Shown piece by piece: positions 5,414 through 34,074 of a DNA stretch of 34,075 nt. Each line of letters starts with the position of its first letter. Position 1 is the stretch's first letter. The stretch is from a virus. Below the pieces are notes generated by a model. It did not search any database and was not told where the DNA came from. It saw nothing but the letters and a program-made list of their open reading frames with translations. Both the position numbers and the translations under genes were made by a program. The stretch is from IMG/VR virus record IMGVR_UViG_3300025128_006394, positions 1 to 34,075 of that record; one strand, given 5' to 3'.

Positions 5414-5414
5414 T

Positions 5415-6404: not shown

Positions 6405-6408
6405 GCCT

Positions 6409-6416
6409 TATTATAG
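6409..6416 (-). promoter_or_regulatory. CTATAATA box, 4 nt before the gmd ATG
   Basis: Exact CTATAATA on the minus strand, overlapping the TAA stop of the upstream aminotransferase gene, then AGGC and the ATG at 6404. An AAGG in the gap is too close to the ATG to be a standard ribosome binding site. It is one of five identical boxes placed directly before start codons. Confidence 0.5.
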
Positions 6417-7956: not shown

Positions 7957-7957
7957 A

Positions 7958-9193
7958 TTACTTAAGTTTTTCTCTTACTAATTCTAAATCACTTTCGTAA
8001 TGAATATCAGTAGCTGTGTCCTTTACACAGCCTATTCTTTTACTTGTATGTCCAGCCAACAAATGAGTATATTTAATTATTCTAACACTACCATTCCTTT
8101 CAGAATCTGGTGTAACTGTAATTAAATCATCATAATAGTTCCTAACCATATACTCTAAACAGTGTGATAAAGAATTACTTTTGTCTGGGTGGTCTGGCTG
8201 TAAACCAACGACATAATCATATTTAGCTTTAATATTATTTACTATATCGATATAAACATCTACAACTTCGGTATCACCACATAAAAACTTATCTCTTATC
8301 ATACCCCTAACATCATTTTTAATGGCAATTTCCATTACATCGTTATCTTCTGTTGAAACAATTATATCATCAACATAAGGACACTCTTTGGCATAATCAA
8401 TAGCATGTTCAACTAAAGATTTCCCATTTATCTCCCTCAAGTTTTTTTTATGTAATCTAGTAGAATCACCTTTAGCAGGTATTATCACCAAGACTTTTAA
8501 ATCCTTCATTTTATTTTCTCCCACCATGACAGTTTTTGTGTTTTTAACTATGTCTTTTAGTGAAGACCATTCAGCTTCGTACCTTTTTATTGTTTCACTA
8601 TTACCCTCATCATGATAGTGGTACACTTCAGCTTCAGGTTCATAGACAATAATATAATTCATTGCTTGGACTTCATTTGACCATTTTATATCTTCCCAAG
8701 CTTTTATTTCTTCATCGAAGTCTACATACTTCCATATATCTTTTCTGATCATACTTGATGCATTATTGAAAAAAGAATCTTTTTGTTGATAAAGTTTTTC
8801 ATCTCTAAAAATTATACTTAAATTTCTCTTATCAAGAACATTAGCATCTTCAGTTGGTAATTGTTTAGAATAAACACCAGCTATTCTATTATGATTAAAA
8901 TTATCAACCATAGTTTTTAAATAAGTTGTCTTTGTAGGAAAACAATGGGCACTAAGATTACAAATGTAATTAAATTTAGCCTTTTTAATTCCTATATTTA
9001 ATGCTTTTCCATATGTAAATGGAATACATTTTTCTACTATACAACCGTATTCATTAGCAACCTCAATTGTATCATCTGTACTCCCAGAATCAACAACAAT
9101 GACTTCGTGTTCTGTAGTTTGATTTGATAGTATCCCCAGTAGCTTTCTTAAATTTTTACCTTCATTTAAGGTTCTTATTACAATACTTATCAT
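7958..9193 (-). CDS. GT2 glycosyltransferase fused to CMP-sugar (ulosonate) synthetase
   Basis: 411 aa with two complete parts. Residues 1-228 are a family-2 transferase: [23 protein letters not shown] and a later WEDIKWSNE acidic segment. Residues 229-411 match NeuA/KdsB-like cytidylyltransferases: [37 protein letters not shown] and VVGLQPDHP. Such enzymes activate 3-deoxy-ulosonic acids with CTP. The junction has a Met (ATG at 8509) with a GGGAGA site 7 nt upstream, so a free 183-aa synthetase could also be made. It overlaps the DAHP-synthase-like gene by ATGA, pairing ulosonate synthesis with activation. Much of the gene is very AT-rich (11/60 to 18/60 G+C in lines at 8761-8940), suggesting a separate origin. 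Confidence 0.88.
8517..8522 (-). promoter_or_regulatory. Internal Shine-Dalgarno site GGGAGA before in-frame ATG 8509
   Basis: GGGAGA ends 7 nt before an in-frame ATG that falls exactly at the start of the CMP-sugar synthetase domain. This spacing and position would allow internal initiation and a separate synthetase polypeptide in addition to the fusion. Confidence 0.45.
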
Positions 9194-10032
9194 TTATATA
9201 TCTCTTTTAAAGTTTCAAAATCTATAGCTTGATTCGGATCACTTATGGATTCATCTGGTATTGGATGAGTTTCTATTATCAAACCATGTGCGCCAGCAGC
9301 CAAAGCAGCTTTAGCTATAGGAGGTACAAAATTTCTATAGCCACATGCATGGCTAGGGTCATAAATAACTGGTATATTAGTTAACTCCTTAAGAGCAGGT
9401 ATAACCATTAAATCTGGAGCCCATATATTATCAAATAGATGTCTAGTTGAAGGGGCACCTCCAACTCCTCGGGGGCAAATAGCTATTCTCTGATTACCAC
9501 CAACCATGATCCTTTCACAAGCACCGAGTATATCTTCAATTTGACCATATAAGCCTCTCTTTAATAAAACAGGTTTATCAATATGTCCTAAAGCATCTAG
9601 CAAGTCATAATTCTGAGCATTCCTTGCTCCTACTTGTATAATATCAACTATATCAAGTGTTTCATCTGTTAATTGACTCGTATGCATTATTTCTGTGACA
9701 ATGGGTAAACCAGTTTCTTTTTTAGCTAAATCTAGTAATTTCAAACCTTCTAGTCTTAATCCCTCTTTCCAACTATAAGTTCCTACGGATTTAGAATCTG
9801 TTACTGGATAAGTACACGGTTTATATGCACCGCCTCTTAGTGCATTAGCACCAAGATCTTTCACGTTTTTTGCTATATCTACTATATTAAATCTATCACC
9901 TGGACCTCCCTCGACCGAACAAGGTCCTGCTATTCTAGTCCAAGGCCAATCAACAGTTAGATCCGCATCTACTGAATGTTTTAACTGTCCTTCTTTAACT
10001 AAATTCTCTATAAATTTGGGTAGTTTTCTCAT
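9190..10032 (-). CDS. DAHP-synthase-like 3-deoxy-ulosonate aldolase
   Basis: 280-aa (beta/alpha)8 enzyme of the type I-beta DAHP synthase group, which condenses phosphoenolpyruvate with a phosphorylated aldose. Visible: GPCSVE (36-41), LRGGA (65-69), QVGARN (133-138), LLKRG (156-160), DPSHACG (225-231) and IETH (253-256). The metal ligands C38, H228, E254 and D265 are present. The phosphate-binding KPRT motif is KPCT (71-74), followed by about nine extra residues, so the aldose substrate may not be erythrose 4-phosphate. No other shikimate gene is present; the next gene is a CMP-sugar synthetase, so a surface-sugar role fits better than aromatic amino acids. GGAGA lies 7 nt before the ATG. 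Confidence 0.85.
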
Positions 10033-10054
10033 TTTATTTCTCCATTTTATTTTT

Positions 10055-10777
10055 TTACAAGTCTAATACTTCTGCGCCAGCCTCAGCTATTATACTGTTT
10101 GCTTCTATAGTACAGGGGGTAATATTATATGTATTTTTTAGATGATGAAAAATATCTTTGAACTGATTAAGAGTTTTATAATATTCGTTAAAGTACGAGG
10201 GTGTACCAAAATCATCAATATCTTCCTGAATGAATGTATCTCCTCTAAAGGTTTCTCTAAGACTTTCTAGTTGATGTTTAATCGTTTCCTTAAATGGTTC
10301 AAAAGAATAAAAGTGATTTGTACTCTTATGGTCAAATCCCACATACACTACTCTACTCGCACCAAGTATCATGGCAATATGAGTAGCTGCAAACCCTATC
10401 TGTTCCGCTCCGACTAAATTAGAATTTTCATTGATGTCTTTAATCATTTCAGACATATTATGTGTTACAACATTTCTATTCGTAGTTTGTATTACATTCA
10501 TAGTTTTTTTCAAAGAGTTATCTAGGGTAGGTTCACCTTGAAATATTCTCACCTTACTATTGCCAAAATAATGATTAAGCAATAACTGAACATAATGACC
10601 AGTCATAAAGTAGTCAGTATCTTCAAATACTAAGTGACTAGCATTACAACCTATGGAGATACCATTATTAATAGTATCGATTTCATTTTGAGTCAAATCT
10701 TTTAACCTAGTACCATTACCTAAAATAAATATAGTTTCTCCACTATGTATATTTTTTAAATCTTCTATTGTTAGCAT
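10055..10777 (-). CDS. GT42/DUF115-like putative sialyl- or ulosonyltransferase
   Basis: 240 aa. The N-terminal [15 protein letters not shown] and SIGCNASH, the central [23 protein letters not shown] and the C-terminal YNITPC...NSIIAE segment follow the order seen in GT42 (CST-type) sialyltransferases and in DUF115/Maf proteins linked to nonulosonic acids. I infer transfer of a CMP-activated ulosonic sugar, because the next two genes make and activate such a sugar. The start is the ATG at 10777, with GGGAGGGG 6 nt upstream; a GTG at 10801 is less likely. The ATG overlaps the previous gene's TAA by one base. AT-rich like its downstream neighbour. Confidence 0.6.
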
Positions 10778-12270
10778 TATTTCCCCTCCCAACACTCCCA
10801 CACGAAAGGATAAGAAAATTTCATCTTGTGAGTTTTCGACAACTTATCAAGAATCTTGTTCCTACGATACACAGGGAATCTACCATAATAATGAAACTGT
10901 ATTAGGAATTTATCTACCTTAGTGTGCAACCCAGAATCTAGCAACTCTTCAAGTATATCAAACTCTGACCCTTCAACATTTAATTTCATAACGTCTATAT
11001 TGTCTACGTCTAACTCCTCAAAAACTTCTGCTATACCACGAACCTTGCAGTCTTCTCTTTTTCCTCCCTCAAGCATAAAAGAAGACTCATCCTCAGAAAC
11101 TGATATGCTGAAAGTTCCGTTCTCTTTTCCTAGTCCAAAATTGAAAAACTTTATCTTATCATTTTCGTTAGATAAAGACCTATCGTAAAGATCCTTAACA
11201 GGTTCAAATCCGTAACAAGTGCATCTATACTTATCGTAAATTTCCGTAGAGTATTCTCCTGTATAAGAACCAAGATCCCATATAACAGAATCTTCAGTTA
11301 ACTCTGGAAAATAAGAAAGTTGGGAATCTCCCCCTCTAGAGAAAAATTCGCTAAGGTGCCTATACTGAGTATGTCCATCTACATAGGTCAAGATGTCTGT
11401 TACATCTAAATCATCCGTTATATTTTGATCAATCAAACTATTTTCAAGAAGAACATTTTCAAATATCCAGTCTTCCTGAGTATCATACTTGCTGACCAGC
11501 TTCTGATTTTCTTCTGCATACATGAACATACTGTCATATAGCTCAGGTGTCAAAGTATTTAATATCTCCTCAAGTTCCTCAATAGTATCGAAAGTTAGTA
11601 TTCCTTTACTATTGAAAAAGTTACCTATCTCCGTAGCTCCATAATAAATAGGTATCACCCCCAAAGCCATAGCGTCTAGAAGCTTCTCACTAAAGTAATA
11701 TGGGTTCTTAGTATTTTCTATTACTACAGTAAACCTGTAAGGAGATAGAGCCTCTTCCTTAGTTTCAAAAGGTCTTCCTGCCCCTGCTCCCCACAAATCT
11801 ATTCCCTTCAAGGATGAAGCTATCTTGTGTCTAAGGCTATGACCAAAAGCTTCTCTCTTAGTAGAGTAAATCATGGAAACCATTTCTGTCTTTTCTGGAA
11901 ATCCATAATTTTCCTTCTCTACCCAGCACCCTCCGAAAGGATAAAACTTAGTTTTTTCTGGATACTTCTCTAGAAGTTCCTTATCGTAAGTGAGCAAAAA
12001 ATCGTAGTTATCAATGTAATTATCTACGCTGTTATAGATAGAGGGGTTTGTCTCTCTGGTCTCTACCAACATACCAATATTTGTGCCCTTGCAATTGGTT
12101 ACAGAGTCTGTATCTAAATAAGAATCCGTAAATAAACTGATGCCTTCCCAACCTTCCTTAACTCTAACATACCTAGTGTAAGAAGGTTTTTTATTATCAG
12201 TCATGGAGTAAATTCCATCCTCTGTTTCCAGATGACTGAACGAATCATCAAATAAATTAATTTCTATCAT
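10777..12270 (-). CDS. GT10 fucosyltransferase-like / FkbM methyltransferase fusion
   Basis: 497 aa with two domains. Residues about 1-280 resemble alpha-1,3-fucosyltransferases: FTVVIENTKNPYYFSEKLL (about 180-198) followed by MALGVIPIYYGA is the GT10 donor-site signature. Residues about 300-497 are an FkbM-type methyltransferase: VIWDLGSYTGEYS, a YGFEPV segment and DVMKLNVEGSEFDILEELL. The polypeptide could both add a deoxyhexose and O-methylate a glycan. I use the ATG at 12270, which overlaps the upstream stop as ATGA; a TTG at 12282 would only add four residues. The GDP-fucose it might need could derive from gmd plus host enzymes. Confidence 0.85.
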   Translation of the reverse strand: MIEINLFDDSFSHLETEDGIYSMTDNKKPSYTRYVRVKEGWEGISLFTDSYLDTDSVTNCKGTNIGMLVETRETNPSIYNSVDNYIDNYDFLLTYDKELLEKYPEKTKFYPFGGCWVEKENYGFPEKTEMVSMIYSTKREAFGHSLRHKIASSLKGIDLWGAGAGRPFETKEEALSPYRFTVVIENTKNPYYFSEKLLDAMALGVIPIYYGATEIGNFFNSKGILTFDTIEELEEILNTLTPELYDSMFMYAEENQKLVSKYDTQEDWIFENVLLENSLIDQNITDDLDVTDILTYVDGHTQYRHLSEFFSRGGDSQLSYFPELTEDSVIWDLGSYTGEYSTEIYDKYRCTCYGFEPVKDLYDRSLSNENDKIKFFNFGLGKENGTFSISVSEDESSFMLEGGKREDCKVRGIAEVFEELDVDNIDVMKLNVEGSEFDILEELLDSGLHTKVDKFLIQFHYYGRFPVYRRNKILDKLSKTHKMKFSYPFVWECWEGK

Positions 12271-13058
12271 ATCTTTATCCAAGAATCTGGAATGATGTCT
12301 TTGCTGTCAAACTCTGATCCAGGTCCGAACCAATTCTTTGGGGCTATTACCACCTTATCCTTATACTTGTTTAGCCAAGCGCCCCACCAACTGAAGGTAG
12401 AATTAGCTATGATATTGTTTTTACACATAGACATCAATAGCATATCAGTAATATCAGATTCCCCCTCTACGTAGAAAGAGTTGGGGACACTAAAATTGTT
12501 TTTGCACCATTCTATATCATCACTAAACACTAGAACAGAATCTACACCAGAAAATTTATCCAGAGCTTTATAATAGTAATCTTCGGTCGGTAATGAATAT
12601 ATATTACTCAAAGAAATGTAATCTCCTCTCCTAACATGCAGTGATAAAGTCTTACCAACCAATATATCGGCATACTTATCCCAAACATTAGAAACCATGG
12701 AATCAGGAAATTTTAAACTGTCTAAAATGTATTCCCTATTGTGGGAAAAATACTTCTCTGATTGAAAATACCCATTGTAACAACAACCTTTTATATAAGG
12801 TAATTCTGTATATGAGAACTCTGGTTCCTCGTAAATATAAATTGTTAAAGCGTCATCGGGATAATATGAATTAACCTCTCTAAATATATTATCATGGTAA
12901 CCTCCAAAATCTGGATTGGATATCTTAGGGAATATGGCAATGTCATCGTTATCTTTAGCTAAACTTAGTAGAGTAGCTACTTGAAACATTTGATTTCCTA
13001 ATCCAAAGTTAGGACAGTTCCCTATATTACTAGGTCCTACCAAATCACAGGTTATCAT
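12267..13058 (-). CDS. GT11 alpha-1,2-fucosyltransferase-like protein
   Basis: 263 aa with the GT11 hallmarks in order: GLGNQMFQVAT (19-29), the GDP-fucose-binding HVRRGDY (141-147), VFSDDIEWCK (177-186) and NSTFSWWGAWLN (219-230). These enzymes transfer fucose or a related GDP-deoxyhexose in alpha-1,2 linkage. The length is near the family's usual 280-300 aa. ATGA overlaps join it to the GT25 gene upstream and the GT10-FkbM gene downstream. With gmd 6 kb further along the same block, it points to a GDP-6-deoxyhexose-containing glycan. Confidence 0.92.
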   Translation of the reverse strand: MITCDLVGPSNIGNCPNFGLGNQMFQVATLLSLAKDNDDIAIFPKISNPDFGGYHDNIFREVNSYYPDDALTIYIYEEPEFSYTELPYIKGCCYNGYFQSEKYFSHNREYILDSLKFPDSMVSNVWDKYADILVGKTLSLHVRRGDYISLSNIYSLPTEDYYYKALDKFSGVDSVLVFSDDIEWCKNNFSVPNSFYVEGESDITDMLLMSMCKNNIIANSTFSWWGAWLNKYKDKVVIAPKNWFGPGSEFDSKDIIPDSWIKI

Positions 13059-13645
13059 ACAGAAAGAACCAATCTAGTAAAGTCTTCTTGTTCTGTTTGA
13101 TAAAAGAAAGGTTTGTTTGGGGTCAAAATAACAAAATCCTTATGTATACTAGCCAACCCTAAGTCGAAAGGCATTTCAAACTCAAGACACTCTTCTATTT
13201 TTTCTAACGCGGCACTAATATAGGAATCAGTAAGATACAAAATTGCGTGGGTAGAACACATATTGTAAACTCTCTTATACTGATCATTATACTGAGAGGC
13301 CATAACTATGTTCTTTATACCTACAGAATCGTAACCTCTAACATACCCATGATTAGACACACCCAAGTATACAGCATCGGCCTCATCAGGTATATCTAAT
13401 TGCAGCCTAAAACTGTCCTCTAGACCTATATCATCTTCTAGGATGAGACACGGTGAGGATGCATCCTTCAACAAAGATTGGTGGGACATTCCACAACCTA
13501 CAACTCCAACGTTATTTTGTATACCTGGAAACCTCTCAAAGGGTAAATGATTATCCTCTAAAAGATTAGATACGTATACAAATCTCCCTGGTGCATCATC
13601 TAGATTTATGAGATGATTTTTAGTTTCCTGGAGATTAACTTTCAT
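13055..13645 (-). CDS. GT25-family glycosyltransferase
   Basis: 196 aa. INLDDAPGRFVYVSNLL near the N-terminus, FERFPGI, GCGMSHQSLLKD and the acidic CLILEDDIGL are the GT25 (LPS/LOS galactosyltransferase-type) pattern, and the acidic pair after LILE is the likely metal-binding site. The start is the ATG at 13645; a TTG two codons upstream is less likely. It overlaps the upstream transferase by 11 nt and the GT11 gene by ATGA. Sugar specificity cannot be read. Confidence 0.85.
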   Translation of the reverse strand: MKVNLQETKNHLINLDDAPGRFVYVSNLLEDNHLPFERFPGIQNNVGVVGCGMSHQSLLKDASSPCLILEDDIGLEDSFRLQLDIPDEADAVYLGVSNHGYVRGYDSVGIKNIVMASQYNDQYKRVYNMCSTHAILYLTDSYISAALEKIEECLEFEMPFDLGLASIHKDFVILTPNKPFFYQTEQEDFTRLVLSV

Positions 13646-14525
13646 AGTCAAGATACTTACCTATAATTGTAAGGTTTTCTAGCGTCTTTTCTCTAAGAAA
13701 ATTTATTAATTCCAACCCAGACAAGGAGAACCAAGGCTCTAATACGGCACCGTAATTCTTAGTAGTCAACACATTCATGCCCAAGGATCTAGCCTCTACT
13801 ACTAGTCTACAGCAGGATTCCCTAGCTATGGGGAAGAACACCAAAGAGGAGTAACTAGCCATGCTAGACAGGAATTTTCGCCTATCGTCACTATTGGTTA
13901 TTAGACTATAATCAAGAATGTTATCTTTACAAAATTTTATAGCTCCTTCAGTGTTCTTAATAGGATTATCACTATCCAAAATACCATACCTATAATCTAT
14001 ATCTTTGGGAGACTCAAAAATATCCTGTAACAGATCTAAATCTTCCGAAGACCACAAAGAACATTCCAGATTAACAAAATTACCAATAACATCATTAGCT
14101 TTGAACACATTGAGATGATCAGTCGTTTGTACAAATATAGCTTTGGCATTTTTATATAAATCATAATTAATTCTATCTTCCTCAGGAACTATGTTATCCT
14201 TATACACCCATGGGTGCCTGTGCCTAACTATCTTATAATCATGCTCTAAAATGACATATCTGGCATTATTAATTATATTATCAACAACAGATTTATCCAT
14301 TCTTGATATATTAGAAAGAACATAAGTAGTAGAGGGGTCTACGTCTTCAAAGTTTTCAGACTCAACATAAGACAGATCAAAATTGTCAACTAGTATAGAA
14401 TTAACTAATTCTGCCCCTCCTTTTTTACCGTCTTTAACTCTGGCTTGGGAGCTTCCGTCATCAGTTTTATATACTGCTTTTATCTCCCAGGGAAAATCAT
14501 CGACTAATGCTCCAACACTAGACAT
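13635..14525 (-). CDS. Putative GT-B glycosyltransferase
   Basis: 296 aa. The C-terminal part has VFFPIARESCCRLVVEAR followed by SLGMNVLTTKNYGAV, a GT4-like donor-binding segment with the E-x-x-R/A-x-G arrangement. A central VILEHDYKIVRHRHPW stretch and AIFVQTTDH recall transferases that act on nucleotide sugars in phage and O-antigen loci. The N-terminal half is divergent. It lies between a GT9-like and a GT25 gene with short overlaps on both sides. Confidence 0.65.
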   Translation of the reverse strand: MSSVGALVDDFPWEIKAVYKTDDGSSQARVKDGKKGGAELVNSILVDNFDLSYVESENFEDVDPSTTYVLSNISRMDKSVVDNIINNARYVILEHDYKIVRHRHPWVYKDNIVPEEDRINYDLYKNAKAIFVQTTDHLNVFKANDVIGNFVNLECSLWSSEDLDLLQDIFESPKDIDYRYGILDSDNPIKNTEGAIKFCKDNILDYSLITNSDDRRKFLSSMASYSSLVFFPIARESCCRLVVEARSLGMNVLTTKNYGAVLEPWFSLSGLELINFLREKTLENLTIIGKYLDYES

Positions 14526-15222
14526 TAGTTAGGCCCTCCCTCTCAAACACTACGGCAGGGTACACTCTATACACTTCATGATACATAGGAGATTTCTTCA
14601 ATCCCTCCGCTATGGAATGAGGCAAACTCTGATTTCCCATGAATACTTCTGCCCCATTGATAACTTTAGCTAAATCTAATATAGTTTCTGTATATTGATA
14701 AGGTATATTAAATCCGAAAGTCTTATTGAAGACCTCACACTCAAACTCCGTACCCACAAAGACAGAATCGTTTCTATACTGGTAAAAGAACTCCTCCCAG
14801 AAGGAGTGATTTCCGTGTACTTTTAAGGATCTAGAAACTACAACCTTCTTCTCTGGATATACTTTCTCGCAGCTAAGCCATTTATCGTTGGCTAGTTCTC
14901 TGTTTAGTTCAAACGCTGATAAATGAGATTTAGCTAGATTATTATATTTTACATGTTGTCTAAACTTGTCTAAGTTGTAATCAATGCTTTCTCCCCTCCA
15001 ACATCTGACATCCTCAATGTAATCCTGCTCTAATAAGAGATGCTGAAGAGAAGATATCGTAGCCTCATTTAGATTGGTCTTGTTTTTGTGGGGAGGGTGA
15101 ACAAAAGGATCCTTTTCACCTCCACAAGGATCTAAGTATAAAAGACCTCCCCCTAAAGCCCTAACAGTGGGAAGAGAGAATATTATATCCCCTAAGTCAC
15201 CAGAATGTTTAAAGGTTTTCAC
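14518..15222 (-). CDS. GT9/heptosyltransferase-like protein
   Basis: 234 aa. The N-terminal HSGDLGDIIFSLPTVRALGGG is the start signature of ADP-heptose:LPS heptosyltransferase-like proteins, and ILDLAKVINGAEVFMGNQSLP..AEGL corresponds to their C-terminal donor-site segment. It is shorter than true WaaC/F (about 320-350 aa). The start is GTG at 15222, preceded by GGGAT, because no ATG precedes the conserved N-terminus. It overlaps the GT4 gene by 14 nt. Confidence 0.72.
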   Translation of the reverse strand: MKTFKHSGDLGDIIFSLPTVRALGGGLLYLDPCGGEKDPFVHPPHKNKTNLNEATISSLQHLLLEQDYIEDVRCWRGESIDYNLDKFRQHVKYNNLAKSHLSAFELNRELANDKWLSCEKVYPEKKVVVSRSLKVHGNHSFWEEFFYQYRNDSVFVGTEFECEVFNKTFGFNIPYQYTETILDLAKVINGAEVFMGNQSLPHSIAEGLKKSPMYHEVYRVYPAVVFEREGLTNV

Positions 15223-16390
15223 TTCTAGGATCCCACCCCAAACTACTAAAACATTGTTCGTATAAACTTAGCCTAAGACCTACAACCTTATTAATATCAA
15301 ATTGTTCTTCCGTTAGCTTATGCAAATTCTCCCCCATTCTCTTTATTAGTTTAGGATTTTTAAGTGCTTTAGTTAGAGTCTTGGCCCAAACCATCTTAGA
15401 AGCGTCTGGAGGTAACAAGACCCCATGTTCCCAATTAACTATAGTTTCATTATAGCACCCTACATCTGACCCTATTAGAGGCACCTTGTATCTCCCAGCT
15501 TCAGCTATCTTAATATCAGATTTACTGTCATTAAAATCATTCATCTGCAACGGAGCTATGGCTATATCCATGTTAGCATACATAGAACCATACTTGTCTG
15601 GCGGCAATGCGTAGTGTATGGCCCAATTGGACGGTCCCCTGAAGCCCTTGAGTAAGACTTCTTTATATTCCTTCCAAACATCCCATTGCCAATCCTTTTT
15701 TTGCCCCTCCTGAAGGGGAGGCGGGTGTCCGTAAAAATCCCAATGTACGTTTTCCCTTCCTACCTTCTGATTAACTATGTGAGGAACGACAGAGAATTGC
15801 CTAACGTCAGGCCTATGATGTATTCCCCCTGCCCATCCTACTCTCATGATCTTCCTAGGGGGCACTGGTTCATTCCAGCAGGGAAGTTCATAATCTATAG
15901 CATTCTTAACTACAGCCAGAGCCATTCCACAAAAAGGCTTTATTCTCTCAGCAAATTTTCTCTGGGTCACTGTAACCAAATGAGCATTGTTATACATAAA
16001 CTTAGTTATCTCGCCTAAGTTTTTCTCCTTATATGTTTTAGCCAACAAATGGTCATCATACAAGTTGGTTAATAAATCATCATTATCTACATGAACAAAC
16101 TTTTTAAACTCTCTAGCTTTTCCCACAGTCCTAGCACTGTATGGACCACCAAAGTTACTTATATTATTAATTAATACTATATCGCTCCACTTTATATTTT
16201 CATACTCCCAGTCTGGTATCCAATGTCCTGTAGAAACGTCTAAGCCTAAAGGATTTTGGTCAAACCTAACCTCTACATCGTCTGGGTAAAGCTCCTGCAA
16301 CTTAGCATACGGAAGTATTGCTCTGTAGTATGCACACCCCCCATCGTTAGCCTTGACCACTAGAATCCTAAGCTTTCTTTTTTCGTTCAT
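15209..16390 (-). CDS. GT4-like glycosyltransferase
   Basis: 393 aa, a full-length GT-B enzyme. KANDGGCAYYRAILPYAKL at the N-terminus, VGWAGGIHHRPD in the middle, and IAPLQMNDFNDSKSDIKIAEAG followed by PLIGSDVGCYNETI at the C-terminus match GT4 donor-binding architecture. It is the second gene of the block after the HNH gene, which it overlaps by 23 nt. No clear Shine-Dalgarno site precedes its ATG, so coupling to the HNH gene is likely. A near-match to the CTATAATA box (one mismatch) lies 4 nt before the ATG, inside the HNH coding region. Confidence 0.85.
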   Translation of the reverse strand: MNEKRKLRILVVKANDGGCAYYRAILPYAKLQELYPDDVEVRFDQNPLGLDVSTGHWIPDWEYENIKWSDIVLINNISNFGGPYSARTVGKAREFKKFVHVDNDDLLTNLYDDHLLAKTYKEKNLGEITKFMYNNAHLVTVTQRKFAERIKPFCGMALAVVKNAIDYELPCWNEPVPPRKIMRVGWAGGIHHRPDVRQFSVVPHIVNQKVGRENVHWDFYGHPPPLQEGQKKDWQWDVWKEYKEVLLKGFRGPSNWAIHYALPPDKYGSMYANMDIAIAPLQMNDFNDSKSDIKIAEAGRYKVPLIGSDVGCYNETIVNWEHGVLLPPDASKMVWAKTLTKALKNPKLIKRMGENLHKLTEEQFDINKVVGLRLSLYEQCFSSLGWDPRSENL

Positions 16391-25610: not shown

Positions 25611-26377
25611 TCCACAATGCTCTCATAAGTGACTCCCATTCTGGACAAGTCTTCTGAGACTAATTGGTATATACCCAAGGCACATTTCCTTATTTCAAAT
25701 TGAGCGTCTGGTTTAAGCCTCTGCCTTAGGAAGTGCATCAATGATTGCAAGGAAACGGTCCAATAAGCCTCAGTATAAATAGCTGTTGGGAGTATAAGTC
25801 TAGCTAATTCTTTAGCCACACCAGCAGACAGTATCTCTTTATATTGTTCATAGGCTTGACTATACTGATCTTTAAAGACATCCCTATATGCATCGGTCCT
25901 AGTTTTACCCCAGCCTAAATCCCCACTAGACTGCTTAGAACCATGACCAGTATTACCCCTCATCTTTCTGGGAACGTAGAATTCAGGCTCTAACTTTTTA
26001 TATCTTCCAGACAATTCATTCCAAGAACATCCCTTATCATCGTCGTAAAACAAATCAAAAGCTTCTACGGATACTGGCTCCCCATCCACTTCATACTTCC
26101 TCCAAGAGGACCCTACCTGATACTTAGTCCATTGTCTAAATGCAAACAGAGGTGCTCGTATATGGAAAGTATAGAAAGCGTGTCTGAACGGACTGGTGTG
26201 ATCATGTTTCCATAAATACCTAACGAGGCCCTTATCCTCCTTCGTAAACTCATTAGAGGAATTTCCGTAGGAGCATCTTGCCGCGTTTACCACAGACAGT
26301 CCAGGATCTTTTGAAGCTCCAACTAACTCTACAAACCCAAAATTGTCATCAAGACAATATACTCTATTGCTTTCCAT
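25607..26377 (-). CDS. thyX: ThyX-family flavin-dependent thymidylate synthase (variant signature)
   Basis: 256 aa. Converts dUMP to dTMP with FAD and methylenetetrahydrofolate in the standard family. Family features: FRHAFYTFHI, FAFRQW (79-83), WNELSGRY (119-126) and C-terminal LMHFLRQRLKPDAQFEIR. The usual motif is RQWxRHRxxSxNExSxRY; here RHR is replaced by KYQ (85-87), and about 28 extra residues (including VEAFDLFYDDDKG) separate RQW from WNELSGRY. The frame is open, so the insertion is real. It could be an ordinary ThyX with an altered FAD site or an enzyme making a modified pyrimidine. It sits with gp47 and a small protein in the replication operon. Confidence 0.85.
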   Translation of the reverse strand: MESNRVYCLDDNFGFVELVGASKDPGLSVVNAARCSYGNSSNEFTKEDKGLVRYLWKHDHTSPFRHAFYTFHIRAPLFAFRQWTKYQVGSSWRKYEVDGEPVSVEAFDLFYDDDKGCSWNELSGRYKKLEPEFYVPRKMRGNTGHGSKQSSGDLGWGKTRTDAYRDVFKDQYSQAYEQYKEILSAGVAKELARLILPTAIYTEAYWTVSLQSLMHFLRQRLKPDAQFEIRKCALGIYQLVSEDLSRMGVTYESIVE

Positions 26378-26561
26378 ATTTATTCTTAATATCTCTAAGT
26401 TTTCTTGCCGAATTTAAATCATTCTTATGAGATCCAGTAAAGGTCATAATAGGAACAGAACCCTTATCGATAATATCCTCAGCATAAAAACCTAGATACT
26501 CAATAAGCTCTAACAGAAATCTTACATCACTTGAACAGGTCGTTTTCTTTTTCTTAGACAT
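26364..26561 (-). CDS. Hypothetical protein, 65 aa
   Basis: A small basic-start protein with a lysine-rich N-terminus, a hydrophobic stretch near 15-27 (FLLELIEYLGFYAE) and a basic tail. I do not recognise it. It overlaps the polymerase C-terminal ORF by 8 nt and thyX by 14 nt, a typical operon arrangement that supports its being translated. Confidence 0.6.
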   Translation of the reverse strand: MSKKKKTTCSSDVRFLLELIEYLGFYAEDIIDKGSVPIMTFTGSHKNDLNSARKLRDIKNKYGKQ

Positions 26562-27699
26562 TAATGCTATCTAGATATTGAGTAACTTCATCTCTATTAG
26601 TTATTACACCATTTTCTAAAAAAGCCTCAATGCCATCACCAAAACTTGAGCCTACCAACATCTCTATAGAAAGAGGAACATCAAGCTTTATACCAAACCT
26701 ATTCGTCATAATAGGATTCTGGACCATATAATAGTCTATGATCTTTAAAGCCTCGTCTAATTCCTCTAACTCAACCAAAAATTCCCCAGAGTCATGCACA
26801 GTCTGACATATTCTAGACTTCATTCCCCTATGCCTGAACTCTCTACCTATACCCAATAAAGAACATAATAATATGTCTGAAGCAACACTTTGAATAGTAA
26901 AGTTCAACCCTTGCCTAAGTGCTTTCTTGGCTACCTTAGGATTTCTTGAATCTACATTCTGTAAATGTCTGCGTCTTCCGAAAAGGGAGTAAGCATACTT
27001 ATTATCTCTAATATTTTCATAGATAAAATCCATATACGGTTGGATACTATCGTAAACTTCAAACCAAGAATCCATTACAGCCCTGGCTTGCTCAACGGTC
27101 TTTCCTATGTTAGGGGCTAGAGTTGCTTCTGTTCCCCCATATACAATAAGGAAGGAGGTTGCTTTTGCTTCTTGTCTTTCTAATCTACTAAGATCTTTCC
27201 TACTCTTTCCATGAATTAGTTCTGCTGTATACCAGTGCAAATCATCATTCTCAATGAATGCCTTCTGCATCTTTTTCTCTTTTGCCACATGAGACAATAC
27301 ACGTAACTCCATAGCAGAATAATCAACAGTAACAAAAGCGTAGCCAGGAGGGGCTACTACCATTGACCTTATGTTGTATTCTCCCTCTTCCCTGGGCAGG
27401 GTGTGGAAAGATACCCCCTTAGGCTTCTTGTTACCAGCGGAATATTTTGAACAGGACAATCTTCCAGTAACTGTACCATCAAAATTGTAAGTGCAGTAAA
27501 TCTTATTTTCACCGTTGTATTCTACGGATCTTTCCATGCCTCCTATGTAAGTAGACTCTAATTTCTTAGTCTTTCTAAACTCAAGAAGATCCATTATAAA
27601 CTTCTGAGCCTCTTTCAAATCAGAAGTTGATTTACCGTGGATTACGCTGGAGCTAACCTGCTCGTCCTCTTTTCTCTGTCTCCAATTTCTTCTAGACAT
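26554..27699 (-). CDS. DNA polymerase family A, C-terminal part (palm and fingers)
   Basis: 381 aa carrying the catalytic core: FRKTKKLESTY, TGRLSCS, motif A VDYSAMELRV (D126, E131), motif B RQEAKATSFLIVYG (R175, K179, F183), QSVASDI and motif C TVHDSG (H302-D303). Motif C has Ser in place of the usual Glu after HD. The 762-type position is Phe, a residue associated with virulent phages in surveys of viral PolA. The ATG overlaps the TAG of the middle piece by 8 nt, and the pieces are offset by one base, so this is a separate ORF or needs +1 frameshifting. The N-terminal 20 residues replace the expected linker of a single-chain enzyme. Confidence 0.93.
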   Translation of the reverse strand: MSRRNWRQRKEDEQVSSSVIHGKSTSDLKEAQKFIMDLLEFRKTKKLESTYIGGMERSVEYNGENKIYCTYNFDGTVTGRLSCSKYSAGNKKPKGVSFHTLPREEGEYNIRSMVVAPPGYAFVTVDYSAMELRVLSHVAKEKKMQKAFIENDDLHWYTAELIHGKSRKDLSRLERQEAKATSFLIVYGGTEATLAPNIGKTVEQARAVMDSWFEVYDSIQPYMDFIYENIRDNKYAYSLFGRRRHLQNVDSRNPKVAKKALRQGLNFTIQSVASDILLCSLLGIGREFRHRGMKSRICQTVHDSGEFLVELEELDEALKIIDYYMVQNPIMTNRFGIKLDVPLSIEMLVGSSFGDGIEAFLENGVITNRDEVTQYLDSINV

Positions 27700-28177
27700 C
27701 TGGCCTCGTCAATAATTCAAACTCTATTTGCTCTAGTAATTGTTCCAAAGCGTCCTTAGCCACTTTGGGGGCCTCATTATCCGTGAACTGAGGAGGGAAC
27801 AGTCCAAACCCTTTGTCATCTAGAAATAATATTTTCCCTATATCATCATTTGATGTTAAGCTATATTTAGTATTAACTTTATCAGACTCATACATGCTGT
27901 CTTCTTTCCTGATATTATTGTTTCTTATAGCTCTACCAATGCGAGTAACTGCATCAAGGTCTACGCAATTCCCATCAAATTCCATCTCTAGGAATTCGTC
28001 TGAGACTGGGCAAAGAAGATCTTTGTATAAGTTCCACCTATCATCTCCCCTGAGAATTTCCTCAAACTTATTAAACAGCTTTAAAGTAAAGTAGGAGTCC
28101 CAACAATTTCCCTCTATACAATCAGGCAGAGAGATGCTTGCCCAATCAAAGGTCTTAGGATTGTCTATAGTAAGCAT
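27692..28177 (-). CDS. DNA polymerase family A, middle part (exonuclease end and thumb)
   Basis: 161 aa matching the stretch of PolA between the exonuclease Exo II motif and the palm: FDWASISLPDCIEGNCWDSYFTLKLF corresponds in position to the Exo III region in PolA (D in NCWD), EMEFDGNCVDLDAV to the thumb start, and TDNEAPKVAKDALEQLLEQ to the pre-palm helix. The Exo III tyrosine position is Gly. It cannot be a polymerase alone. It begins 7 nt after the stop of the glycosyltransferase gene, with no Shine-Dalgarno site, and an in-frame stop lies two codons upstream. The stop overlaps the palm ORF start by 8 nt. Confidence 0.85.
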   Translation of the reverse strand: MLTIDNPKTFDWASISLPDCIEGNCWDSYFTLKLFNKFEEILRGDDRWNLYKDLLCPVSDEFLEMEFDGNCVDLDAVTRIGRAIRNNNIRKEDSMYESDKVNTKYSLTSNDDIGKILFLDDKGFGLFPPQFTDNEAPKVAKDALEQLLEQIEFELLTRPDV

Positions 28178-28184
28178 GTATTAT

Positions 28185-29048
28185 CTAAGTATTAGGTTTG
28201 GTCCAAACAACTTTATCATCACCAACATTTCCCTCACCAACTTTCCTTAGATTATACTTATGAAGGTTACCGATTACTTCCTTAGCCTCCGTCAAATCTT
28301 TCTCAAAAGAGCTAGTAATGTCCTCCTCCGATTGAGTCCAATGATCACATAGGCCTTGTTCAGCAGTCCACTCTGATCTCCTGGAGAGAAGCTGCTTCCT
28401 CCTCCTCACTTTATAGTCTACGGACAGGTCTTTATAGTGTAGAAGTTTAATATCATCCTTCTCACTCTCTTTCATTAAGTCTTCTCTAGCATAAAGACCG
28501 TGGGCACCATAACACAGCTTACTTCCATATCCAACCCTAGGATCAAATATAAGCCTCTTGTCCATTCCCTCACACCTCATTCCAGTCCTAACTTTATCTA
28601 CCAGAAGTTCTCCGTCATGTTCAGGAAAATCCTCGGAAATCATTTCAAACCCCATAACTGTGGGGTAATTAATACCAGAGAGCATATAGCCCTCCAAAAG
28701 TCCCCTCATGTTTGGATGGTAATAGAATTCGTCGCAGTCTGCTATTATAACCCAATCGGCACCCTTTCCATACTTCTTAAAGCAGTTTTCCTTAACGAAA
28801 TTAAGCATTCTTTCGTCGTAAACAGGAGCTATACCACTCACACTTTTTTCTTCCTCTGACAGTAAGGAGGGATCTACGCACCATTGCTCTACTTGAACTT
28901 TATTATACTGGGACGCTATTTCTAAAGACTTATCATCTGATGCATTGTCTAGTAACACAATTCTATCACAAAATTGTGAGTAGTGATCTAACGTAAAAGG
29001 AAGAATTTCCTCCTCATTCCAACATACAATATAAGCTTCTATATTCAT
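28185..29048 (-). CDS. GT2/GT92-like glycosyltransferase inside the polymerase gene set
   Basis: 287 aa. YIVCWNEEEILPFTLDHY, IVLLDNASDDKS and WVIIADCDEFYYHPN (acidic metal motif) show a GT-A transferase of the Glyco_tranf_2_4/GT92 kind; LLHYKDLS and the basic RRRKQLLSRR segment lie near the C-terminus. Its ATG overlaps the stop of the UDG-exonuclease ORF (TAATG) and its stop precedes the polymerase middle ORF by 7 nt. It interrupts the polymerase between Exo II and Exo III. It is isolated from the main glycan block 11 kb away, so a role with DNA or virion is possible but unproven. Confidence 0.85.
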   Translation of the reverse strand: MNIEAYIVCWNEEEILPFTLDHYSQFCDRIVLLDNASDDKSLEIASQYNKVQVEQWCVDPSLLSEEEKSVSGIAPVYDERMLNFVKENCFKKYGKGADWVIIADCDEFYYHPNMRGLLEGYMLSGINYPTVMGFEMISEDFPEHDGELLVDKVRTGMRCEGMDKRLIFDPRVGYGSKLCYGAHGLYAREDLMKESEKDDIKLLHYKDLSVDYKVRRRKQLLSRRSEWTAEQGLCDHWTQSEEDITSSFEKDLTEAKEVIGNLHKYNLRKVGEGNVGDDKVVWTKPNT

Positions 29049-30091
29049 TATAAATCCTGTAACTCATCAGCAAAATACTCGGTTACCAAACTTTTAAGGC
29101 CGTTTGGAGCGTCCTCCCGTATAAGTTTAGCCAACAATTTAGTATCCCAAGTGGTACCCTCAGCGCACCTTATATTATACCTCAAGAGAAATTTTCTATC
29201 AAAAGTATGATTTTGAAATATTTTTTTATTATTTTTATTGCCTAAGACCTCAGAAATAAACTCCAGAACTTTTTTCCTATCGTATTCAGAAAACGGAGTG
29301 AATCTGTGATCAATAGGTAAACAGACATTTCCATCAGAAAAAGAAAATGCGATAGTTTGGATGAGATCCTTTTTAAAATCGAGTCCTGTTGTTTCAATGT
29401 CAATTCCTATTGGTTCCTCTGTTGTTTTAAGAAAGCCATAATTTTCAAGTTGCTTAATATCATGAATACCCTCATAAGAGAACTTACTCTTATCTACTAT
29501 ACCAAGTATATACTTATTATACCCGTTCCTAATGTCAAGTTCAAACAAATATCGCATTCTAGGTTCTTGAACAACTGCAAAAGGATGATATAGTGCTACC
29601 ACCCTACAAACATGTCCCTTCTCCGTCTTATACTCGTAGGAAGTCCCTCTTTTGTCTCCGATACCTGATTTTTTCGTTAGCATTTTTAGGGCTAAATTAC
29701 CACAGGCAAATATTAACTTTGGCTTAAGCTTATCAACCATAGGATCCAGATAATTTCTACAAGAATTCATAGACACTGGATTCATGTCCGATTCAAGCAT
29801 ATTAGGACACTTTACAGAAGCTGCGAAATCTATACGAAGGCCATCTCTAATATGGTCATACATGGGATGTAAGCAATCAACTATAAGATCTCTTTCTTCC
29901 GTCCTAAAAGCCTTGCTGTCCCCATAATTCCACTTAACACTATCAGAAAGGAAGAGTATATCCAATTCCTCCATGGACTCATAGTCTTTTATACAATGCC
30001 TTGGCTTATTCTTTTTTAGAACTGGGCACCCAACGCAGTGTGATTCTGAAGCCTCAACTGGGCCAGAGAATAAATCTTCTAAATCGCTCAT
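29048..30091 (-). CDS. Uracil-DNA-glycosylase-like domain fused to PolA 3'-5' exonuclease N-part
   Basis: 347 aa. Residues 1-200 resemble the family 4 UDG/SPO1-polymerase N-domain: C19-x2-C22 and C95-x15-C111 match the [4Fe-4S] cysteine spacing of that family; IFACGNLALKML and ALYHPFAV follow. The catalytic GEAPG-type motif is replaced by SDSVKW, so glycosylase activity is doubtful. Residues 225-347 are the exonuclease start: GIDIETTGLDF (D231, E233), NHTFDRKFLL (Exo II, D298) and TWDTKLLAKLI. The chain stops before Exo III, which is in the ORF at 27692-28177. The three pieces may assemble into a proofreading polymerase with an Fe-S uracil-recognition domain. A divergent CTATAATA box lies just before its ATG on the other strand. 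Confidence 0.85.
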   Translation of the reverse strand: MSDLEDLFSGPVEASESHCVGCPVLKKNKPRHCIKDYESMEELDILFLSDSVKWNYGDSKAFRTEERDLIVDCLHPMYDHIRDGLRIDFAASVKCPNMLESDMNPVSMNSCRNYLDPMVDKLKPKLIFACGNLALKMLTKKSGIGDKRGTSYEYKTEKGHVCRVVALYHPFAVVQEPRMRYLFELDIRNGYNKYILGIVDKSKFSYEGIHDIKQLENYGFLKTTEEPIGIDIETTGLDFKKDLIQTIAFSFSDGNVCLPIDHRFTPFSEYDRKKVLEFISEVLGNKNNKKIFQNHTFDRKFLLRYNIRCAEGTTWDTKLLAKLIREDAPNGLKSLVTEYFADELQDL

Positions 30092-30099
30092 CTATAATA
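30092..30099 (+). promoter_or_regulatory. CTATAATA box, 4 nt before the sigma gene ATG
   Basis: Exact CTATAATA on the plus strand, then CTGT and ATG at 30104. No Shine-Dalgarno site or -35-like element is apparent. The gap between the divergent sigma and UDG-exonuclease genes is only 12 nt, so it must hold the whole plus-strand promoter region apart from sequence within the opposing gene. Confidence 0.55.
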
Positions 30100-31123: not shown

Positions 31124-31131
31124 CTATAATA
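31124..31131 (+). promoter_or_regulatory. CTATAATA box, 7 nt before the nuclease ATG
   Basis: Exact CTATAATA on the plus strand, in the 18-nt divergent gap. The following G makes CTATAATAG, whose reverse complement CTATTATAG is nearly the same, so a weaker divergent start on the minus strand is possible. An AGAG precedes the ATG by 5 nt and may serve as a weak ribosome binding site. Confidence 0.5.
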
Positions 31132-31138
31132 GAGTATA

Positions 31139-31651
31139 ATGGAAGATAATTACGATCTATCTAAACTAAAAAACAAAAAGAAAAGAAAGAATAGTAGGGC
31201 CAAGGGTAACGCTTTTGAACGTAAAATAGCAGAGGCTCTTAATAAAAGATTCAACACAAAGGAATTTTGCAGGACCCCTGGGTCAGGAGCATTCGCTACT
31301 AGCCATAAGAACCTTCCTGAGCATCTAAAGCTATACGGAGACTTGATAACGCCGATCAATTTTCGTTACGTCATAGAGTGTAAGAAGGGATATAACAAAG
31401 AAAACATTTGTTCTTTTTTCTCAAAAAAATCTGAGATAAACTCTTTCATAAAGCAAGCAAATAAAGAATCAAAATATTCAAACAAGCCATTCATAATTAT
31501 ATTATGTCAAGACAGACAAAAACCTATATGTATATTAAATAAAGATAATATAAGTTATATGGATAGTGATTATTTAATATTTAATGATGAATATATAATA
31601 ACTACGTTAGAAAGTCTACTTAAGATAGAAGACTCTTTCTTCCTATATTAG
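31139..31651 (+). CDS. PD-(D/E)xK nuclease (Holliday-junction-resolvase-like)
   Basis: 170 aa. AKGNAFERKIAEALN (E27), RTPGSGAF, YGDLITP (D68) and YVIECKKGY (E80, K82) are the catalytic E, D and ExK of the PD-(D/E)xK fold in Hjc/RusA-independent resolvase-like nucleases. It may resolve branched DNA in replication and recombination. A lysine-rich N-terminus suggests DNA binding. The second half is very AT-rich (11 G+C in 60 bases at 31501-31560), in contrast to the conserved first half. It runs opposite to its neighbours, and its last 32 nt overlap the 813-aa gene tail. Confidence 0.8.
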   Translation: MEDNYDLSKLKNKKKRKNSRAKGNAFERKIAEALNKRFNTKEFCRTPGSGAFATSHKNLPEHLKLYGDLITPINFRYVIECKKGYNKENICSFFSKKSEINSFIKQANKESKYSNKPFIIILCQDRQKPICILNKDNISYMDSDYLIFNDEYIITTLESLLKIEDSFFLY

Positions 31652-34061
31652 AAAGAAATTCCACCAGCCTACTTTGAAAATGAATCATTGACTCAAGAAC
31701 AGATTCTGTAGTAGGTTTCTTTGTTCTTATGCTATGATGTTTTGCTTGTCCTTTAGAAATATACACTCTTGAGTTTAGCTGTCTATCTCCACCAACAGAT
31801 TTTGAACCCTGGTCAAGGACTATAAACCTTGATGGATCTTTAATATTAGTTAAATACATCTCATACATAGATCCCGCTACTTTAGATCCTTTCTTCTTAG
31901 ACATGCTACCCATAGTTAATTTCCAATCATCACTACCTTTTAGCCAGGAATTAATAGGCTCTGATAATGTAGCATTCTTATTAGATACATAAGTCTTTAG
32001 ATCTTTAAGGGATCTCATAGATAAAGTTGTTCCGTCCTTACCAGATCCACCAGGGAGAAAGAATCTGGAGGCTAAGTAATACCTAGCGTCCGTGTTCCCA
32101 GGGTCATTAGCATCATTAAACATTTTCTTAGTTTGCAAAAATGTAGATATTCTTTCCCTAGCTCGTAATAAAGTACCCTCATTACCTTTTTTAGAGTCGG
32201 ACATAAGGTTAACCAAAGAGGCCCTTTCCCCAGTAGTAATTTGACCGTATGTGCTGTTTCTTTTAACTACGTCAAGCAAATTACTAACTGTGTCCTTAAG
32301 AGGAGTAGTCTCAACATCAGAACCGTCAGGTGATTTAGTAACCTGTTCAAAAGGTAACGATCTAACCTTTTTGTCTATATTTGATATTGTTTTATGATAA
32401 CTGTGCGCTGAGTCCCATTCATTATCACTCATAGCTAGATTAGTTTTAGTTACCTCTCTAATAGATTTATAAACAGGAGTCTCCCTGCTACCAGAATAAA
32501 ACTTGTCAATTGTTGTCCCTTGAAGCTCTCCAACTTTAGCTCCTTTACCTTCATAGCTCATATAATTTTTAAGATCCAAACTATGAATATATACTTCTGT
32601 ATTTTTAGAAATTCTACGTGTAGATAACGCATACTTGTAAGAATCTTTATCATCTTTGAATGCTACACTTGCTGGGGCCGTTACTAATTTTCTTTCGGAG
32701 TCTTGTCTAGAAAATCCTTGAGACATGAGACCTTTTATGGCTGCTTCCTTATCAACCCATATTTCCAGGTTATCTGTAGATTCGCCAATGGTATTTGAGC
32801 CTCCTCCAGCGTTAGCAACAAAGTCTGGGTATCTTGTGTTTACAACGTCTTTTGACATACTTAGAATAGCTGTCATTGTTTGTCTAAATTCTTCTGTATC
32901 TCCTACTAACTCTGCTATAGCATCAACGACTTGTTTATCCTCTGACGTTACTGCCCTCTCCCCTCTGTGATATCCAGCTACCCAACCTCTGTGGACGTTT
33001 ACTAACTTGGCTATTTTTCCTTTATAATCTCTAGCCATATTTTCAGATGATTGACAGATTGAATCCACTAAGGGATCTTTTCTGATTTTAGCATCTATGC
33101 ACTGTTTAACTGCTACGGTCATAGGTAGAATTTTTTCAAAGGAAAGACTCCTAAAAACTGTATCTACTCTATCGTTTTGAATCTTATCAATATCAATTGA
33201 CCTAAAAGATATTCCATGTTTATCCTCAGCAACTAATGCCAAAGAGTCTAAAAATTTAGTTCCATCCTTAAAAACTAATCCTTCAGTATCCGACCCTTCA
33301 GAGAACACAGTAAAAGTCCCATCACTTCCCCTAGCTACTTTCATTAGTAGTTCTTTCTTAGCGTCATCAGCCAAGTCTTCTTCTGTAACTTTATCTATAA
33401 AGAAACCAAGATTTCTAATAACACCCTTTGCCATATTAACGTCAGGTATATTATCCTTAGTATGCTCTGTCGTTATAGCCTTCCCTTCCTTCAGGTTAAA
33501 AGATACAGTGGAGGCTATCTGAGATTCCAAAGACGCTTCTCTTGCCCCAGCTAAATAATTTCTTAATACCTTGTCATTCTTAATATACTGTTGGTCTGTA
33601 TTTCTTCCTAGCTTGGAAAGAACTTCAGTAAGTTTCTTAAAAATTTGTGGAGCGACCGCAGCCATCTTTTTAAATGTCTGTATAGACTCCTCATCCCCAA
33701 AAGGAGTATTCATTATTTTAGATCCAGCATCAAACTCAGTCCTAACCTTTGCTGGATCAACTTCTGCTTGTTTTCCGCCAAATTTAGATACAAACTCGGG
33801 CCAGAATTTTCCCTTACGTCCACCGACTTCTAGAGCAGTTTTATTATACGCTGCCGAAGGGCTGGAAGAAAAATTTATCTTGCCTACGCTTGTAGCAAAA
33901 ACATATAACTTTTCAATAGGGTTATATGGGTTATTCATTTTATACTTAGAAGCTTTTTTAGCAGCGTCCATAGCAGCCTGTTCAGCCTGAGGATCTAATT
34001 CCTCAGCTTGCTCGTATAGAGTTTCATACGCTTCCAGAAGTTGATCCAAGTAAGTATTCAT
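31620..34061 (-). CDS. Large hypothetical protein, 813 aa
   Basis: I recognise no catalytic motif. The N-terminal 40 residues are acidic and helical (LDQLLEAYETLYEQAEELD); the body mixes alpha and beta with no signal peptide or membrane segment, and the C-terminal 30 residues include a repeated hydrophobic pattern (SMIHFQSRLVEFLSNIG). Length and lack of enzyme motifs would suit a virion or injected protein, but that is inference. A CTATAATA box lies 5 nt before the ATG, with no Shine-Dalgarno site; if this box is a late promoter, the gene is in the late class with structural genes. Confidence 0.75.
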   Translation of the reverse strand: MNTYLDQLLEAYETLYEQAEELDPQAEQAAMDAAKKASKYKMNNPYNPIEKLYVFATSVGKINFSSSPSAAYNKTALEVGGRKGKFWPEFVSKFGGKQAEVDPAKVRTEFDAGSKIMNTPFGDEESIQTFKKMAAVAPQIFKKLTEVLSKLGRNTDQQYIKNDKVLRNYLAGAREASLESQIASTVSFNLKEGKAITTEHTKDNIPDVNMAKGVIRNLGFFIDKVTEEDLADDAKKELLMKVARGSDGTFTVFSEGSDTEGLVFKDGTKFLDSLALVAEDKHGISFRSIDIDKIQNDRVDTVFRSLSFEKILPMTVAVKQCIDAKIRKDPLVDSICQSSENMARDYKGKIAKLVNVHRGWVAGYHRGERAVTSEDKQVVDAIAELVGDTEEFRQTMTAILSMSKDVVNTRYPDFVANAGGGSNTIGESTDNLEIWVDKEAAIKGLMSQGFSRQDSERKLVTAPASVAFKDDKDSYKYALSTRRISKNTEVYIHSLDLKNYMSYEGKGAKVGELQGTTIDKFYSGSRETPVYKSIREVTKTNLAMSDNEWDSAHSYHKTISNIDKKVRSLPFEQVTKSPDGSDVETTPLKDTVSNLLDVVKRNSTYGQITTGERASLVNLMSDSKKGNEGTLLRARERISTFLQTKKMFNDANDPGNTDARYYLASRFFLPGGSGKDGTTLSMRSLKDLKTYVSNKNATLSEPINSWLKGSDDWKLTMGSMSKKKGSKVAGSMYEMYLTNIKDPSRFIVLDQGSKSVGGDRQLNSRVYISKGQAKHHSIRTKKPTTESVLESMIHFQSRLVEFLSNIGRKSLLS

Positions 34062-34066
34062 TATAT

Positions 34067-34074
34067 TATTATAG
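34067..34074 (-). promoter_or_regulatory. CTATAATA box, 5 nt before the ATG at 34061
   Basis: Exact CTATAATA on the minus strand, followed by ATATA and the ATG. The window ends one base beyond the box, so any upstream element is unseen. It is the fifth copy of the start-codon-abutting box. Confidence 0.5.

Follow-up and report, generated by a model that had tools for sequence, protein, structure and literature searches.

A family A DNA polymerase encoded by three separate genes, with a cargo slot at the first junction, in a clade of T4-related phages

We analyzed a 34,075-nucleotide stretch of viral DNA (IMG/VR record IMGVR_UViG_3300025128_006394, a 34 kb fragment which we will call the window) in which a family A DNA polymerase (PolA) is divided among three genes. 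A first-pass annotation, made from the letters alone, had described four consecutive open reading frames (ORFs) at this locus, and all four are present, on the minus strand, at the coordinates it gave. P1 (29048..30091; 347 amino acids) encodes a domain that resembles family-4 uracil-DNA glycosylase (UDG; approximately residues 14-198), followed by the part of the PolA 3'-5' exonuclease that bears the Exo I and Exo II motifs. At the P1/P2 boundary lies a glycosyltransferase gene (28185..29048; 287 amino acids; GT-A/GT2-like, with a DCD motif). P2 (27692..28177; 161 amino acids) encodes Exo III (D27) along with most of the thumb, and P3 (26554..27699; 381 amino acids) encodes the palm and fingers in addition to what remains of the thumb. 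The stop codon of P1 overlaps the start codon of the glycosyltransferase gene in a TAATG (29046..29050), the ATG of P2 is 7 nt beyond the glycosyltransferase stop, and the end of P2 overlaps the start of P3 by 8 nt (27692..27699), with a frame relation that varies among relatives.

All three pieces match family A polymerases. When a single Klenow chain (1d9d) was compared to profiles of the three pieces, P1 covered positions 6-127, P2 covered 160-294, and P3 covered 303-598, in order and without overlap, so little is missing from the polymerase. These positions also place the first break between the Exo II and Exo III motifs and the second within the thumb. Similarly, the DNA polymerase family phrog_17 (from PHROG) is covered in order (P1 475-785, P2 797-927, P3 929-1236), with the P2 match being weak by itself (E = 0.003). 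The Pfam, PHROG, and Klenow profile matches bear out the domain assignments of the first-pass annotation, as well as its view that the pieces join in PolA order with little loss. As expected for family A, motifs A, B (the O-helix), and C are found in P3 and the Exo I, II, and III carboxylates are found across P1 and P2; a single continuous polypeptide, which is usual in PolA but not essential, is not found here.

P1 has Pfam matches to the exonuclease (PF01612, 5.5e-12) and to UDG (PF03167, 4.5e-6), and its profile matches the UDG structure 4zbx (9e-14) as well as the Klenow exonuclease. The AlphaFold2 model of P1 from the window is confident (predicted local distance difference test, or pLDDT, of 91; predicted template modeling score, or pTM, of 0.84), and the UDG part of the model has a family-4 UDG fold (Z = 15.9 against 4zbx, with a root-mean-square deviation of 3.4 over 174 residues). 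The Exo I (D231, E233) and Exo II (D298) residues are invariant in 107 of 107 sequences, and so are four cysteines (C19, C22, C95, and C111). The spacing of these cysteines matches that of the 4Fe-4S cluster cysteines of family-4 UDGs, and we predict from it that the exonuclease chain of this DNA polymerase carries a 4Fe-4S cluster. Position 50 is acidic in 106 of the 107 sequences (98 D and 8 E) and the HP motif is present in most of them. However, motif A of the family-4 UDGs (GEAPG) is absent from P1, where the aligned segment is sDslk, so we describe this domain as "UDG-like" and do not claim that it is an active UDG.

P2 is too divergent to match Pfam, but a profile of 12 P2 relatives matches residues 160-294 of the Klenow fragment with an E value of 9.2e-11. 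Both D27 (Exo III) and G23 are invariant in 122 of 122 sequences. G23 aligns to Tyr497 of Klenow, which means that the tyrosine of the Exo III YxxxD motif, which is usual in proofreading members of PolA but not essential for membership, is a glycine throughout the clade. P3 matches DNA_pol_A (PF00476, 6e-71) across positions 66-380 of the 381 in the Pfam profile. Its active site residues (D126 of motif A; R175, K179, F183, and Y187 of the O-helix; and H302-D303 of motif C) are invariant in 113 of 113 sequences. P3 also has about 25 extra residues at its N terminus with no counterpart in Klenow.

Scans with P1, P3, or the glycosyltransferase as single sequences did not retrieve any relatives, but a mixed polymerase alignment identified 13 true relatives, whose P3 proteins are 41-54% identical to that of the window. 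Twelve of these (L010-L021; L numbers are our labels for the sequences compared) have the synteny around P1-P2-P3 in common, and the distant relative L022 retains the order P1-P2-P3-ThyX-SbcD-SbcC-ribonucleotide reductase as far as its contig extends. Later scans reported 301 matching stretches, and we used the P1, P2, and P3 profiles to compare 126 non-identical IMG/VR contigs, including the window. P1 and P2 are separate ORFs in 116 of 116 clade contigs, and P2 and P3 are separate in 122 of 122. As a control, the same script found one ORF for 78 of 80 other phage PolA with the same domains; the two split controls are from Aerococcus phage AVP, which has an annotated HNH gene between the halves, and L078, which has overlapping frames. 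Uninterrupted UDG-PolA genes, which the first-pass annotation had suggested looking for, are thus the rule in the outgroup, while the clade is split throughout. In a tree of P3 with 81 clade and 30 unsplit sequences, which was built by a quick method and has long outgroup branches, the split sequences form one side of a branch with maximal support (Shimodaira-Hasegawa-like approximate likelihood ratio test of 100) and a stem length of 1.66.

Judging from dN/dS, all three pieces are under purifying selection: the median ratios are 0.085 for P1, 0.069 for P2, and 0.050 for P3, based on the 10-15 pairs with unsaturated dS (most pairs are saturated). We rejected pseudogene decay because of these ratios and the invariant catalytic residues. 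We also rejected the idea that the three pieces are really one frame broken by assembly error, as the same split recurs in over 100 independent contigs from separate datasets, including a single-cell genome (L125/L170).

Eight clade contigs are long (68-131 kb). Each of these has exactly one match to PF00476 and none to PF00136 (PolB) or PF07733 (Pol III alpha). A complete second polymerase encoded elsewhere, the alternative in which these pieces would be decayed, was not found in the eight long relatives (the window, as a fragment, spans only 34 kb). All eight encode a T4 gp23-type capsid protein (in L314, the one tested, its identity to the closest phage record is only about 29%), and the window encodes gp32-like, DnaB-like, UvsX-like, and weakly sigma-factor-like proteins. 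The lineage is T4-related and has a family A polymerase. No member of the clade was found among 50,697 phage records, a set that may lack close records, and the polymerase pieces have nothing closer than about 34% identity there. Our one match in a genome collection is a 130.6 kb contig from a Prochlorococcus single-cell genome, AG-409-P03, which agrees with L125 in length and range. This single cell gives a lead that the host might be Prochlorococcus; the lack of any photosystem gene match in the eight long contigs calls for caution.

The boundary between P1 and P2 is a cargo slot that unrelated genes have entered repeatedly. P1 and P2 overlap or abut in 70 of 116 contigs (in 59 relatives, P1 is joined straight to P2 by a 1-nt TAATG overlap), and in the other 46, at least one gene, spanning 150-2400 nt, lies between them. 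The glycosyltransferase occupies the slot in just 3 loci; otherwise the occupants are unrelated genes, including lipoprotein-like, virion-like, and small membrane proteins, small ORFs, and a 2-oxoglutarate-Fe(II) (2OG-Fe(II)) oxygenase. (Where inserts lack a database match, these names were judged from the sequence.) An opposite-strand gene is part of the insert in 30 loci. At these loci, a motif similar to the T4 late promoter (of the CTATATAT or CTATATAATA type) adjoins the start codon of P2 on the reverse strand. A strict pattern for this motif matches 24 of the 30 opposite-strand loci, 0 of 15 loci with sense-only inserts, and 0.6% of background windows; by eye, the remaining 6 opposite-strand loci have a close variant, TATATAATA. 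In the window, CTATAATA, which resembles a T4-type late promoter, is found at 30092-30099, 31124-31131, and 34067-34074, directly upstream of the genes at 30104 (+), 31139 (+), and 31620-34061 (-). The exact motif occurs 8 times in the window, as compared to 4.0 expected, which is only a marginal enrichment.

Inserts at the second junction, between P2 and P3, are rarer (5 of 122): three loci have a gene similar to deoxynucleoside monophosphate kinases, L094 has a small ORF, and L141 has a DUF6445 protein. L141 has cargo at both junctions, with the 2OG-Fe(II) oxygenase (L141:6287-6920) at the first and the DUF6445 protein (L141:7410-7997) at the second.

We propose, with a probability of about 0.8, that the three chains are translated independently and assemble non-covalently into a family A UDG-Exo-Pol replicase whose proofreading site is common to P1 and P2. 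The genes lie in the order P1-P2-P3. P1 would contribute two thirds of the 3'-5' exonuclease (Exo I and Exo II) in addition to the UDG-like domain; the Exo III helix would come from P2, as would most of the thumb; and P3 would complete the thumb and add the palm and fingers. The association of the chains is most likely non-covalent, with P1 and P2 each providing metal ligands to the proofreading site. Stop-start reinitiation at TAATG probably couples the expression of genes that touch. As true gene boundaries, the junctions could admit other genes harmlessly; the P1/P2 boundary would thereby have become the cargo slot, with the glycosyltransferase as the cargo in the window. The three-chain proofreading polymerase suggested by the first-pass annotation thus holds up as to separate ORFs, intact catalytic residues, and purifying selection; assembly, activity, translational coupling, and a role as the replicase are our inference.

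Modeling is consistent with a shared exonuclease. In L018, P1 and P2 happen to share a frame that is interrupted by a TAA, which we read through for prediction only. In the joined model, residues 195-461 match the Klenow structure 1d8y (Z = 20.2, with a root-mean-square deviation of 2.6 over 209 residues). The model is a complete PolA exonuclease: P2 completes the fold, and the chain break (338/341) lies inside it.

Several points weigh against our proposal. First, folding was limited to single chains, and the joined model is of P1-P2 only, with a low-confidence thumb. Second, because the Exo III tyrosine is a glycine in 122 of 122 sequences, proofreading may be weakened or may work in a different mode. 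Third, the clade is known from metagenomic or single-cell contigs, with no isolates among them.

We consider the odds slightly better than even for a bolder version of this proposal, in which the enzyme is an obligate heterotrimeric replicative polymerase that is fixed in the clade, with a two-chain proofreading site and with P2 as the bridge between the exonuclease and polymerase chains, and the P1/P2 boundary is a long-lived capture site, even for late virion-type genes on the opposite strand. If so, then having separate genes would let the proofreading chain be expressed or docked independently.

As to how the split arose, a homing endonuclease might have split the gene and then been lost or replaced by cargo. 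This account of the origin is compatible with the three-chain enzyme and follows a known route in T4-like phages (Aeh1 nrdA and gene 43 of phage 25; PMC2988022); the HNH gene between the PolA halves of phage AVP is another precedent. However, no homing endonuclease family was matched among the insert representatives that we searched with Pfam, a search that an endonuclease of an unknown kind would escape, and the present state does not require an endonuclease, so we view this origin as possible but doubtful.

Alternatively, the polymerase might consist of P2 and P3, or of P3 only, with P1 acting apart, either as a nuclease or as a UDG-like factor, and with proofreading being lost or supplied in another way. 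This would fit with the glycine in Exo III, with P1 and P2 being the pair that is most often separated, and with the confident predicted fold of P1 by itself. But all four exonuclease carboxylates are invariant, including D27 of P2, which would have no obvious role unless P1 docks, and we consider this scenario to be unlikely.

The first-pass annotation saw the glycosyltransferase as the element that interrupts the polymerase. The glycosyltransferase is absent from all 13 of the initial relatives, and since relatives carry the same split without it, it is not part of the split and was not its cause. Its assignment as GT2-like is supported by PF13704 (2.1e-12) and a DxD motif. Homologs that are 45% identical occupy the same slot in L193 and L284, and ADCDEF is present in all three; L193 and L284 lie elsewhere in the P3 tree than the window does, which implies at least two changes. 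The idea that the transferase was captured by insertion is right, but the insertion was into a gene boundary that already existed. It is best read as cargo.

It is quite improbable that the glycosyltransferase is instead functionally linked to the polymerase, for instance by glycosylating new DNA, and was placed there for co-expression. Its start codon does overlap the stop codon of P1, and a distant region of the tree does carry the same family at this position. Nevertheless, it is found in only 3 of 116 loci, and elsewhere the slot holds unrelated small ORFs, lipoprotein-like genes, or the 2OG oxygenase, which leaves the earlier tie to DNA modification unsupported. Furthermore, inspection of the window's ORFs by eye did not reveal a DNA hydroxymethylase, and the sugar genes of the window suggest a role in glycans rather than in DNA. 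These genes (4400-16390, identified by eye) include a nucleotide-sugar dehydratase, an aminotransferase, a DAHP/KDO-8-P synthase-like ORF, and several glycosyltransferase-like ORFs; the run suggests the making of a surface or virion glycan.

Finally, a single chain might be made from the pieces after all, whether through splicing of an intron or a split intein or through programmed frameshifting or stop readthrough. The overlap of P2 and P3 has a +1 frame in 89 of 121 loci, and P1 and P2 share a frame in L018, L305, and L312. But the P2-P3 relation is -1 in 28 loci and 0 in 4, and the P1-P2 relation varies from overlaps of 1, 7, or 11 nt to in-frame after a stop to whole genes in between, so no single frameshift links the pieces. 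No Rfam intron matched, at the gathering score, in the window or in ten related loci, and the nearly end-to-end alignment to Klenow leaves no space for intein halves. Together with the occupation of the P1/P2 slot by unrelated genes, including opposite-strand genes, which argues strongly against frameshifting, introns, and inteins, this makes a joined chain very improbable indeed.

A few other features of these genomes are of interest. In the window, a 65-amino-acid ORF (26364-26561) that has no PHROG match overlaps the P3 stop codon in a TAATG; most relatives have ThyX after P3 and leave hardly any space, or none, for such an ORF. The ribonucleotide reductase gene of L013 (L013:10308-13101) has an in-frame intein-like insertion (CLKKGSLVLTPDGYK...GIVSQGCGE) after approximately residue 312, and the copy in the window lacks this insertion. 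By eye, a glutamine-synthetase-like ORF (2658-3632) lies beside dUTPase-like and deaminase-like ORFs in the window.

A three-piece PolA that is fixed in a widespread uncultivated group, under strong purifying selection, makes several questions testable: whether there is a natural exonuclease site that crosses chains, whether the docking of a separate chain regulates proofreading, and by what route an essential gene turns into an open site for gene capture. The pieces could also be ready-made parts for split polymerases in biotechnology. Surveys of polymerases that count only full-length PolA would miss this clade.

How does this enzyme compare to known systems? Rhodothermus phage RM378, which has separate exonuclease and polymerase genes, has no match to the P1-P3 profiles, so it is not a relative at that level. 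The UDG-Exo-Pol enzymes of SPO1-like phages (Herelleviridae; L005) and of the jumbo phage PaBG (PMC7412058) share these domains and their order, with the UDG-like domain at the N terminus, but they are single chains, whereas the clade described here has three chains and has lost the Exo III tyrosine. In the Aeromonas phages 25 and 44RR, gene 43 (family B) is split into 43A and 43B, whose products co-purify and are active, and nrdA of phage Aeh1 is split as well (PMC2988022). These phages are also related to T4 and divide a replication enzyme between chains, but the splits occur in individual phages, give two chains, and are associated with either an untranslated insert or a seg endonuclease, and gene 43 belongs to family B; here we have family A, three chains, and an entire clade. 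The phages MEP401 and MEP402 of OM43 have a two-ORF family A polymerase, for which the authors suspected an intron (PMC10580990). As in our clade, PolA is split, with a small ORF in between, and most members of a marine group retain the arrangement; unlike in our clade, there are two pieces, the break is inside the polymerase domain, and the exonuclease is intact. Aerococcus phage AVP (L006) has UDG-like, Exo, and Pol domains in two annotated pieces, with the break in the fingers and the HNH homing endonuclease in between. In jumbo phages, the stand-alone domains of split PolIII alpha and of multisubunit RNA polymerases are thought to reconstitute the enzyme (PMC7824862), but these are unrelated polymerase families. 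In the literature that we searched (most subscription journals were outside its scope), we did not find any account of a PolA in three pieces, of a break that separates Exo II from Exo III, or of such a cargo slot. The known split phage polymerases are in two pieces, and several are linked to mobile elements, while the PolA described here is in three pieces and its proofreading domain is divided.

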